DNA from: Bacillota bacterium
Lineage (GTDB): Bacteria; Bacillota; UBA4882; UBA10575
Assembly (NCBI GenBank): GCA_029782135.1
Contig: JAKOVI010000131.1
Coordinates: forward strand, 1-32,142
Length of the DNA stretch: 32,142 bases
Direction: 5' to 3'
Part shown: one piece after another, positions 28,619 through 32,142 of the stretch
Position numbering within the stretch: the stretch's first letter is position 1
Layout: each line of letters begins with the position of its first letter
Made by a program: the position numbers and the translations under genes
The notes under the pieces: generated by a model
Told to the model about the DNA's origin: nothing
Databases searched by the model: none
What the model saw: only the letters and a program-made list of their open reading frames with translations

Positions 28619-29041
28619 ATGAAGCTCAAACTATTTTATCCCAACCAAAGTTCAGAACTTGCTTTACCGGCTGTCGGTCCACTCTCAGCCGGTTTTCCTT
28701 CCCCGGCCGAGGATTATCTCGAAGCCGTTCTCGATCTTAACCAGGCGCTCGTGAAGAATCCCAGTTCGACCTTTTACGGGACGGTCAAAGGGAACTCGAT
28801 GACGGAGGCAGGCGTCGACGACGGGGATCTGCTGGTGATCGACAAAGCGCTGCCTTACCGCCATCAGGCGCTGGCCGTTTGCTATCTGGACGGTGAATTT
28901 ACGCTGAAGCGGATTAAAATTGAAGGTCAGAACTTATACCTGATGCCGGCCAACCCGACGTATCAACCAATTATGGTCCGTGCCGAGCAGGATTTTTGCG
29001 TCTGGGGCATTGTCACTTATGTGATTAAGAAGGTCTACTAA
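28619..29041 (+). CDS. umuD: UmuD, DNA polymerase V accessory protein
   Basis: A 140-residue LexA-like S24 peptidase. The RecA-stimulated self-cleavage site is Ala24-Gly25 (LSAGFPSP). The catalytic dyad is Ser60 (KGNSMTEAG) and Lys97 (FTLKRI), the same numbers as E. coli UmuD. After damage it cuts itself to UmuD', which joins UmuC to form a translesion polymerase. It starts 20 bases after the LexA box region, with AAGGAAGGGTAAG as ribosome-binding site. Its stop is followed directly by the umuC start. Confidence 0.96.
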   Translation: MKLKLFYPNQSSELALPAVGPLSAGFPSPAEDYLEAVLDLNQALVKNPSSTFYGTVKGNSMTEAGVDDGDLLVIDKALPYRHQALAVCYLDGEFTLKRIKIEGQNLYLMPANPTYQPIMVRAEQDFCVWGIVTYVIKKVY

Positions 29042-30301
29042 ATGTATGCGCTGGTGGATTGTAATAATTTTTATGTCTCTTGTGAACGGGTTTTCCGCCC
29101 GGATCTGAACGGCCGGCCGGTGGTGGTCCTCAGCAATAACGACGGTTGTATTATCGCCCGCTCCAATGAAGCCAAGGAGCTAGGGATCAGAATGGGTGAA
29201 CCGGCTTTTAAAATTGCGGATTTCCTCCAGCAAAACCAGGTGGCGGTTTTTTCTTCAAATTATGCCTTGTACGGGGATCTATCGCACCGGGTAATGAGTA
29301 TTTTGGGCCGTTTCACTCCCGAACTGGAGATTTACTCGATTGATGAGGCTTTTTTAGGGTTGGCCGGTTTGAACGTTGACTGGGAAGATTACGGGCGAAA
29401 AATCCGGGAGACGGTCCTGCGGCATGTGGGGATCCCGGTCAGTGTGGGGATTGCGCCGACCAAGGTCCTGGCGAAGGCCGCCAATCATCATGCCAAAAAA
29501 GGCCGGGGGAAACAGGGAGTAGGGGTTTTGGACTCACCGGAAAAAATCGAGGCGGCTTTGAAGGAATTGCCGGTTGACGAGGTCTGGGGGATCGGCCGGC
29601 AGTATACAAAGTTGTTGAAAGCCCAGCAGGTGGAGACGGCCTGGGAGTTCCGGCAGTTGGACGATGACTGGGTCCGGCGGCGGATGACCGTGGTCGGGCT
29701 GCGGGTGAAAAAAGAGTTGGAAGGGATCGCGTGCCTGGAGATGGAATTAATACCACCGGCGAAGAAAGTGATCTGTACCTCCCGCTCGTTTGGGGCAGAC
29801 CAGACCGACCTGGGACCGCTGGAAGAGGCGGTGGCGACTTTTGCGGCCCGCTGTGCGGAGAAACTGCGCCGGCAACGCTCCTGCGCCGGGATGATGATGG
29901 TTTTTCTCCATACCAACGGCTTTAAGGAGGATGAACCGCAATACGCCAAAAACCTGGTCTTTAAATTGCCGGCCGCGACGAACAGCACAATCGAACTGGC
30001 CCGTCATGCCCGGGCCGCGCTACGGGTTATTTATAAAAAAGGTTACCGGTACAAAAAAGCCGGGGTGATCGTGATGGGGATTGTCCCGGAGGAGCGGGTG
30101 CAGGGCTCTTTATTTTCCGGTGTGGATGAGGCCAAACATGCCGCGGTGATGAAACAGATTGACCGGATCAACGCGAAATACGGACGGGACACGATCAAAA
30201 TCGCGGCGCAGGGTTCGGGGGAAAAATGGAAACTCCGCCGCCAGAAGCTCTCCCCGTGCTATACGACTAGGTGGGAGGATATTATCAAGGTAAGGGTGTA
30301 G
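29042..30301 (+). CDS. umuC: UmuC, Y-family DNA polymerase V catalytic subunit
   Basis: A 419-residue translesion polymerase that copies damaged DNA. Catalytic acids are Asp6 (LVDCNNFYVSCE) and Asp101-Glu102 (YSIDEAF). SNNDGCIIARS is the nucleotide-binding finger typical of UmuC rather than DinB. The helix-hairpin-helix thumb and the little-finger region (about 240-345) follow. The C-terminus near residues 350-390 has VQGSLFSGVDE, a possible beta-clamp contact (QGSLF). It starts one base after umuD ends, so translation is coupled. Confidence 0.96.
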   Translation: MYALVDCNNFYVSCERVFRPDLNGRPVVVLSNNDGCIIARSNEAKELGIRMGEPAFKIADFLQQNQVAVFSSNYALYGDLSHRVMSILGRFTPELEIYSIDEAFLGLAGLNVDWEDYGRKIRETVLRHVGIPVSVGIAPTKVLAKAANHHAKKGRGKQGVGVLDSPEKIEAALKELPVDEVWGIGRQYTKLLKAQQVETAWEFRQLDDDWVRRRMTVVGLRVKKELEGIACLEMELIPPAKKVICTSRSFGADQTDLGPLEEAVATFAARCAEKLRRQRSCAGMMMVFLHTNGFKEDEPQYAKNLVFKLPAATNSTIELARHARAALRVIYKKGYRYKKAGVIVMGIVPEERVQGSLFSGVDEAKHAAVMKQIDRINAKYGRDTIKIAAQGSGEKWKLRRQKLSPCYTTRWEDIIKVRV

Positions 30302-30304
30302 CCG

Positions 30305-31042
30305 ATGTGTTTCTTTTATGCGTTAAGCCAAACGGCCCAGAGTTTGAAAAATCGCTATCAATTGGCGGATGACTTTATCTTTGAGTTGGGGCCGGAGTTG
30401 AGCGGGCCGATCTATTACGTCTCGGGTTTCGACTTCCCAAAAATGCCGGTCCTGACCAACGAGCAACCGGCGCGGCTGCAGGTTTTCCGCTGGGGGCTGG
30501 TTCCCTCCTGGGTGAAAACAGCAGCCCAGGCGGCGGAGATCCGGGCGAAGACCCTGAACGCCCGGGCGGAGACGGTTTGGGAGAAACCGGCGTTCCGGCA
30601 GGCGGCCCGTCAGCGCCGCTGCTTGGTCCCGGCGGATGGTTTTTACGAATGGCGGGCCTTTAACGGGAAAAAGTATCCGTATTACATCTATCTCCGGGAC
30701 AAAACGGTCTTTTCCTTTGCCGGGCTCTGGGAAAAATGGGTCGACCCGGCGACCGGGGAGATTCTAAAGACCTATACGATTCTGACCACCGCGGCCAACC
30801 CGTTAATGGAAAAGATCCATAACACCAAAAAACGGATGCCGGTGATTCTGCCCCGTGAGTGTGAACGGGACTGGCTCCGGGGTGATCTGAGCGAGGCGGA
30901 CCTGCGGGCGTTGACGGAACCGCTGCCGGCCGAGTTGCTGGCGGCGCATCCAATCAGCCGGTTAATTACCGCGCGGGTCCCGGACCGCAACGTGCCGCAG
31001 ATCCAGGAGGCGTATCATTATCCGGAGTTGGACGAGGTTTAA
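30305..31042 (+). CDS. SRAP-domain protein (YedK/HMCES type)
   Basis: A 245-residue SOS response-associated peptidase-like protein that crosslinks to abasic sites in single-stranded DNA through its second residue. Seen: Cys2 (MCFFYAL), Asn85 (LNARAET), Glu115 (DGFYEW) and His172 in IHNTKKRMPVIL, the complete active-site set. HNTKKRMPV in place of the common HDRMPV adds a few residues to that loop. It starts 3 bases after umuC and ends at a terminator. It is thus the third gene of the LexA-controlled operon and would shield abasic sites met during translesion synthesis. Confidence 0.95.
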   Translation: MCFFYALSQTAQSLKNRYQLADDFIFELGPELSGPIYYVSGFDFPKMPVLTNEQPARLQVFRWGLVPSWVKTAAQAAEIRAKTLNARAETVWEKPAFRQAARQRRCLVPADGFYEWRAFNGKKYPYYIYLRDKTVFSFAGLWEKWVDPATGEILKTYTILTTAANPLMEKIHNTKKRMPVILPRECERDWLRGDLSEADLRALTEPLPAELLAAHPISRLITARVPDRNVPQIQEAYHYPELDEV

Positions 31043-31534: not shown

Positions 31535-31563
31535 TTGACAAGGGGATAAAGATTTGCTAATTT
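31535..31563 (+). promoter_or_regulatory. Promoter of the T-box transcript
   Basis: TTGACA (31535-31540), 17 bases, then TAATTT (31558-31563) preceded by TGC as an extended -10. Transcription would start near 31570 and run straight into the T-box leader. Confidence 0.8.
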
Positions 31564-31569
31564 AAATGA

Positions 31570-31897
31570 CATATATCAAAATAAGCTAAATGCGTGGAAC
31601 GGGACAACACCCGGCCGTAAGTTGCTGCAGAGAGCTGTTGGCTGGTGGAAAACAGCGCACGAAGGCCAGGGAACTCGCCCGGGAGCAGTCACCTGAAAGC
31701 TGCCGTTTCGGTTGGCAAGGCAGTGAGTAAGCGTGAACGGGGTTCTCGCCGTTATCAAGAGAGGGCATTCATCTTTAAAGGTCGTTCCTATAAAGGTCGA
31801 TGCTGCAAAGTGGGTATCTTTATACCAAGAAGAGTGGTACCGCGGAAGGTTAAGCTTTCGTCTCTTGCTGTTAGGCAAGGACGAAAGCTTTTTTTAT
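31570..31897 (+). ncRNA. T-box leader riboswitch
   Basis: A complete tRNA-sensing T-box leader. In order: Stem I with AGAGAG (31629-31634) and its apical hairpin GCTGTT/AACAGC around GGCTGGTGGA, then GAACTCGCCC; the AACGG/CCGTT hairpin with the usual CCGTTATC; a stem III GGTAT-CTTT-ATACC (31813-31826); the T-box AGAGTGGTACCGCG (31831-31844); and a terminator whose arms AAGCTTTCGTC and GACGAAAGCTT (31852-31862, 31880-31890) precede a T run. Uncharged tRNA would favour antitermination. I cannot assign the specifier codon safely: the 3' side of Stem I seems to hold an extra hairpin. The downstream gene is not a tRNA synthetase. Confidence 0.93.
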
Positions 31898-31978
31898 AAA
31901 ATTGCGGCCGTGTAGACTTCCCTGCGGATCAGTAGGGATAAAATAAACAATGTCTGTGCTAACAAGGAGGCGATTACA

Positions 31979-32142
31979 ATGAAAATTGCTTTTTCCACCC
32001 TAGGTTGTCCGGATTTCAGTTGGAACGAGATCTATTCGATGGCCAAGGACTTAGGCTTTGACGGGATTGAAATCCGGGGGTTGGGGGAGGAGATCTTTGC
32101 CGTCAAGGCGCCGCCGTTTACGGACAGCCAATTGCCGGAGAC
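31979..32142 (+). CDS. Sugar-phosphate isomerase/epimerase-type TIM barrel (5' part)
   Basis: The first 54 codons of a gene cut by the window end. The start MKIAFSTLGCPDFSWNEIY followed by AKDLGFDGIEIRG is the typical first strand and helix of the xylose-isomerase-like AP-endonuclease-2 superfamily (inosose, hydroxypyruvate and hexulose isomerases). The ATG is 8 bases after AGGAGG (31965-31970). It lies 81 bases downstream of the T-box terminator, so its expression should depend on a tRNA charging level. It differs from the ketose-epimerase-like protein at 4635. Substrate unknown. Confidence 0.85.
   Translation, partial: MKIAFSTLGCPDFSWNEIYSMAKDLGFDGIEIRGLGEEIFAVKAPPFTDSQLPE

Follow-up and report, generated by a model that had tools for sequence, protein, structure and literature searches.

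A leucine-type T-box leader before a TIM barrel–acyl-CoA synthetase fusion gene in a Bacillota bacterium points to possible tRNA-controlled salvage of branched-chain acids

We propose that leucine starvation in this Bacillota bacterium turns on the activation of a branched-chain acid, which would then be reductively carboxylated and transaminated to leucine; we put the probability of this reading at about 0.6. It starts from a T-box leader at the right-hand end of the window (the whole 32,142-nt stretch of DNA analysed here, which is the entire contig C15). The sequence supports the T-box and its specificity for leucine, as well as the fusion of a TIM barrel and an acyl-CoA synthetase in the gene that it precedes, the conserved pairing of leader and gene, and a link to VOR-type oxidoreductase operons in other families. 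The leader is best explained as a canonical transcription-antitermination T-box that would read tRNA-Leu(GAG) and control a single gene. Its features in the window are the following:

31535–31563, forward strand: promoter, with a perfect -35 TTGACA at 31535–31540 and an imperfect -10
31586–31868, forward strand: T-box leader RNA of the tRNA-Leu type (RF00230, full model)
31674–31676, forward strand: specifier codon CUC (Leu) in the stem I specifier loop AACUCG (alignment with the leuS and leuA leaders; fold)
31835–31838, forward strand: antiterminator bulge UGGU, complementary to the ACCA of tRNA-Leu(GAG) (covariance alignment)
31852–31896, forward strand: intrinsic terminator (hairpin 31852–31890, run of seven T at 31889–31895)
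31965–31970, forward strand: ribosome-binding site AGGAGG (from the sequence)

The RF00230 match (109.7 bits against a gathering score of 93, E = 1.2e-23) is the sole RNA-family match that cmscan returned in the window. It runs over the full model (1–219) and covers stem I, stem III and the antiterminator, which confirms that the leader is real and complete, as a sequence-only reading of this DNA had claimed. The same reading had given the leader its own terminator, and a competing intrinsic terminator is indeed present between the T-box and the gene start: its hairpin has a folding energy of -27.5 kcal/mol (z -4.2), and 0 out of 200 shuffles were equally stable. A simple terminator scan of the window returned no match for this hairpin. 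The claim of a consensus promoter holds for the -35 hexamer but not for the -10, since the two candidates, GCTAAT (31556–31561, 15-nt spacing) and TAATTT (31558–31563, 17-nt spacing), both fall short of the full consensus and a sigma-70 scan of the window at 16–18 nt spacing reported no site. The promoter pattern of the leader occurs once in the window.

The specifier codon was fixed by covariance-model alignment, as the sequence-only reading had advised. The CUC of the window aligns exactly with the CUC of the leuS (L005) and leuA (L010) leaders of the same genome, and in the fold of the leader AACUCG sits in an internal loop. In TBDB, the distance between the specifier and the end of its loop is two to four bases, and CUC is the commonest leucine specifier (PMC7778990); a CUC triplet confers leucine-dependent control on the B. 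subtilis ilv-leu operon (Marta, 1996, as cited in PMC2494555). The anticodon of the host tRNA-Leu(GAG) matches CUC, and this tRNA ends in A73-CCA, matching the UGGU bulge that the window shares with the leuS and leuA leaders. A serine reading, in which the specifier is UCN one base later, was weighed and rejected as very improbable. CUC is followed by G, A or C, so that UCN would also encode serine in each of these CUC leaders, and tRNA-Ser(CGA) and tRNA-Ser(GGA) exist in the genome. However, the third base would then vary freely while CUC stays fixed, one related leader with CUG keeps leucine and breaks UCN, and the window leader aligns with those of leuS and leuA. Moreover, the UGGU bulge matches the A73 of tRNA-Leu, but both tRNA-Ser genes that were read end in G73-CCA, and the serA leader of the same genome uses UGGC. 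The genome contains 16 further T-box matches, and most of them precede genes that fit their specifiers, with product names taken from our reading of the translations (tyrS, valS, ileS, leuS, trpS, metS, leuA, pheS, cysE-cysS, serA, homoserine dehydrogenase and thrS). On sequence grounds (specifier, bulge and alignment), we regard it as established that the window T-box reads leucine. Separately, T-boxes with UGG-type specifier regions at L008 and L012 (contigs C83 and C6) each precede a TrpB2-like tryptophan synthase beta gene, the two genes being paralogues in one genome.

The gene behind the leader enters the window with 54 codons, which encode the N-terminus of a PF01261 TIM barrel, and its reading frame is cut at the contig end. 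The last 201 bases of the window (31942–32142) recur without a mismatch at the end of contig C110, where the whole gene is found. This match is probably an assembly-graph overlap, and with it contigs C15 and C110 can be ordered. The two parts of the gene are:

31979–32142 of the window, forward strand: 5' end of the fusion gene, 54 codons from the ATG at 31979 (201-base overlap and translation)
L052:8206–10728 on contig C110, minus strand: full fusion gene, 840 amino acids (overlap and translation)

In the 840-residue protein, the first ~290 residues form the TIM barrel and the remainder is an AMP-forming acyl-CoA synthetase. The isomerase-like first gene of the sequence-only reading is therefore correct as to the PF01261 barrel, which turns out to be merely the N-terminal third of a fusion. 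On an orthologue with 92% identity (L053), Pfam places PF01261 at 22–244 (112.2 bits), PF00501 at 303–692 (320.9 bits) and PF13193 at 743–818 (75.9 bits). The downstream gene on contig C110 is convergent and the transcription unit is thus one gene. An amino-acid gene later in the same operon, which would have made the pairing ordinary, can be discarded: beyond position 32142 the unit holds the fusion only, and the neighbours differ between relatives.

The synthetase motifs YTSGTTGFPKG and NAAGK are invariant, the latter with its catalytic-type lysine. The synthetase half is closest to the PRK12583 fatty-acid-CoA ligases (NCBIfam), and the closest solved structures of the domain are feruloyl- and fatty-acyl-CoA synthetases. 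The fusion shares with these ANL fatty-acid/medium-chain ligases the AMP-binding and AMP-binding_C domains and both motifs, but it scores below the curated cut-off (714 against 832 bits) and has in addition an N-terminal TIM barrel and a leucine T-box. Neither the sequence family nor the solved structures fix the acid; isovalerate is the predicted substrate. The model of the N-terminal domain (pLDDT 77.5, pTM 0.82) matches the folds of D-tagatose 3-epimerase, IolI, UlaE and AsbF in Foldseek (probability 1.00, TM about 0.7). It shares with these PF01261 barrels the fold and the E-D-H-E pattern, and differs from them in its sequence (about 20% identity or less) and in being fused to an acyl-CoA synthetase. 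E143, D171, H198 and E240, which we take to be metal ligands by comparison with known PF01261 members, are invariant among 18 sequences, and this makes the TIM barrel probably a metal-dependent enzyme. The full-length fold model of the 840 residues (pLDDT 57.9, pTM 0.36) is too poor to judge domain arrangement or channelling. The genome of the window also encodes a second, standalone TIM barrel (L233:7899–8741), 41% identical to the N-terminal half of the fusion.

Thirteen full-length orthologues, 80–92% identical over the full length, come from relatives in the genus, family, order and class. Conservation of the leader was counted on the nearest 80 named loci of the 559 confirmed. By title, these best 80 of 559 all belong to Bacillota or Clostridia-type organisms, among them Desulforamulus, Pelotomaculum, Acetivibrio, Ruminiclostridium, Thermoclostridium, Pseudobacteroides and Petroclostridium, and 63 out of the 80 have a T-box core motif in the 800 bases that precede the gene. 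Among the 64 leaders obtained by adding that of the window, the bulge is UGGU in every one and the specifier is CUC in 58, the synonymous CUG in one and atypical in two, with stem I unreadable in three; a TTGACA and TATAAT-like pair lies upstream in 31 out of 64. Some leaders without the full motif keep terminator-like remnants, read by eye (L073, L084, L087, L098 and L117). The sequence-only reading had also considered that the leader was captured after a rearrangement. Taken as a chance event, such a capture would leave the control metabolically meaningless. The convergent and unrelated downstream gene would fit such an event, but the pair and its specifier are conserved across many genera with different neighbours, and degraded leaders persist in some relatives. 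Because the pair is conserved while the neighbouring genes vary widely, we rejected chance capture, to which we give a practically negligible probability.

In other families of the phylum, the TIM barrel and the synthetase are separate genes. Compared with the fusion, these unfused synthetases are 58–61% identical and the unfused TIM barrels 41–43% identical, and the two genes are adjacent in L234 and L236. In seven genomes (L234, L268–L271, L273 and L279) they form an operon with a 2-oxoacid:ferredoxin oxidoreductase of the VOR/POR type. The gene order in L234 is ilvD, ilvH, acyl-CoA synthetase, TIM barrel and the gamma, delta, alpha and beta subunits of a ferredoxin oxidoreductase of the pyruvate/2-ketoisovalerate family. 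The synthetase-TIM-oxidoreductase order recurs in L268, L269, L270, L271 and L279, and in L273, where delta and beta subunits were recognised; partial arrangements are found in L272 and L236 (synthetase-TIM) and in L235 (TIM-oxidoreductase). In the operons with all three components, the oxidoreductases score for both the pyruvate and the 2-ketoisovalerate families. These operons suggest that the fusion joins two proteins which elsewhere are probably co-expressed with an enzyme that interconverts acyl-CoA and 2-oxoacid. The sequence-only reading had offered an isomerase in an amino-acid-linked pathway; the amino-acid link is supported by the leucine T-box and by the oxidoreductase operons, one of them with ilvD and ilvH, but the protein concerned is a fusion and not an isomerase alone. 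The tie between CoA ligase and oxidoreductase was found in the genomic context of other families, and in the genome of the window the genes for VorB-like and other 2-oxoacid:ferredoxin oxidoreductases lie elsewhere.

Upstream of the L279 operon lies a T-box antiterminator remnant (27.1 bits, E = 3.2e-4) that shares AGUGGUACCGCGGAAG...CUUUCGUCUC with the window leader. This T-box (L279:5718–5875) consists of an antiterminator and a terminator without a normal stem I. The other synthetase-TIM-oxidoreductase operons showed no T-box at the gathering threshold. Leaders that are stem-I-less or reduced to the terminator, resembling that of L279, were also seen in L081, L073, L084, L087, L098 and L117.

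From these observations a mechanism can be proposed. When leucyl-tRNA runs short, uncharged tRNA-Leu(GAG) would pair with CUC and UGGU, the antiterminator would form and the fusion gene would be read. The synthetase domain would then most likely activate a scavenged branched-chain acid, with isovalerate as the candidate; a VOR-type 2-oxoacid:ferredoxin oxidoreductase encoded elsewhere would reductively carboxylate isovaleryl-CoA to 2-oxoisocaproate, and transamination would yield leucine. Four elements of this scheme are inferred: which acid is used, in which direction the pathway runs, which oxidoreductase takes part, and the role of the TIM barrel. Synthesis is favored over breakdown because the T-box is on when the tRNA is uncharged. 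The TIM barrel possibly isomerises or hydrates the acid, the acyl-CoA or the 2-oxoacid, or its role may be structural. What looks like a de novo leucine route is also encoded in the genome, by leuA, itself preceded by a leucine T-box, and by an aconitase-family gene adjacent to a leuB-like one; salvage would thus supplement it as a second and shorter route. Carboxylation of isovalerate to leucine in rumen anaerobes goes back to Allison (1962, 1966; cited in PMC7356843), and its two steps, acid activation and then reductive carboxylation, would require just these enzymes, a CoA ligase together with a 2-oxoacid:ferredoxin oxidoreductase; here, in contrast, both the candidate gene and the way it is regulated are put forward on sequence grounds alone. 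Several findings count against isovalerate salvage: the synthetase matches the general ligase family PRK12583, below its cut-off; no step on the way from the acid to leucine obviously calls for the TIM barrel, despite its invariant metal ligands; the operon oxidoreductases score for pyruvate too; and most of the synthetase-TIM-oxidoreductase operons have no T-box.

A parallel case occurs in the same genome. At L017 a T-box with a UUC (Phe) specifier precedes a phenylacetate-CoA ligase (TIGR02155, 612 bits, just below the cut-off), and this pair, UUC included, is kept in 20 out of the 41 genomes searched, these 20 being of the family and class. Its positions are:

L147:5684–7295, genome G000, contig C151: Phe (UUC) T-box and phenylacetate-CoA ligase; in relatives, L157–L181

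On contig C151 the ligase gene is followed by a gene for an ACT-domain protein. Two acid-CoA ligases under amino-acid-matched T-boxes suggest a shared scheme in which an acid is converted to its acyl-CoA, then to a 2-oxoacid and finally to an amino acid. Rumen anaerobes make leucine from isovalerate and phenylalanine from phenylacetate, according to earlier work cited in PMC7356843.

The main rival with the same chemistry as leucine salvage is the supply of isovaleryl-CoA for the priming of iso-branched fatty acids, a process that draws on leucine. Low leucine would mean less isovaleryl-CoA, and the T-box would turn on the activation of free isovalerate, protecting the membrane and sparing leucine. 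The predicted activity would be identical, and the pool to be sensed would be the one that a leucine T-box monitors. However, the unfused homologues lie in oxidoreductase operons, once beside ilvD-ilvH, and not with fatty-acid synthesis genes, and a Phe T-box before a phenylacetate-CoA ligase is hard to explain by lipids; we consider lipid priming improbable. Somewhat less improbable, though still doubtful, is a leucine-related pathway set by the TIM barrel, in which an undescribed metal-dependent isomerisation, dehydration or hydration would be combined with CoA activation, with no salvage of isovalerate. The invariant E143, D171, H198 and E240, the fold match to enzymes with epimerase or dehydratase activity (D-tagatose 3-epimerase, IolI and AsbF among them), and the unfused TIM gene that still adjoins a synthetase or oxidoreductase gene would all agree with it; on the other hand, TIM homologues also stand alone beside unrelated genes (L274–L278 and L280–L282) and the substrate is conjectural. 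A bolder form of our own proposal, which we hold as a tentative and on balance unlikely extension, is that many anaerobic Bacillota possess an undescribed module for leucine formation under T-box control, with the fusion as its dedicated enzyme. The TIM barrel, as a metal-dependent enzyme, would then catalyse a new step between the acid, its CoA ester and the 2-oxoacid of the ferredoxin-dependent oxidoreductase, and the Phe T-box with its phenylacetate-CoA ligase would be a sister module. If this were true, tRNA sensing would govern acid-to-amino-acid salvage as a general scheme.

The window leader shares with the leucine-class T-boxes of B. subtilis ilv-leu and leuS the full model match, CUC, UGGU and the terminator/antiterminator pair, and its antiterminator AGUGGU...CGUCU is a mild variant of the T-box GGGUGGU...CGUCCC. 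It differs in its target, a TIM-synthetase fusion in place of the usually listed synthetase, leucine-biosynthesis or transport gene. In the literature covered, whose scope does not include the surveys of Vitreschak (2008) and Gutierrez-Preciado (2009), we found no report of T-box control of the isovalerate route or of a TIM-synthetase fusion, and none joining a T-box with a phenylacetate-CoA ligase. The T-box RNA itself is ordinary; its target, as far as this literature shows, is new. Leucine formation from isovalerate by carboxylation has been reported in anaerobes since the 1960s, and there is now a concrete candidate gene for the activation step. The proposal indicates a way in which cells might decide whether to build leucine or to recycle the acids of their community. 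It also points to a role for a widespread fusion protein, and likewise for a phenylacetate-CoA ligase under T-box control, and would extend the list of T-box targets to acid salvage.

Two minor observations concern gene neighbourhoods. Just upstream of the leader, at 28619–31042 of the window, UmuD-like, UmuC-like polymerase and SRAP-type genes lie in a row, and their homologues occur near the fusion gene in several relatives of the same family. Standalone TIM-barrel homologues without a synthetase are found in complete genomes of one genus (L274–L277 and L278); those at L274–L276 adjoin a threonine cluster (aspartokinase, thrB and homoserine dehydrogenase), and that at L278 adjoins an aromatic amino-acid cluster.
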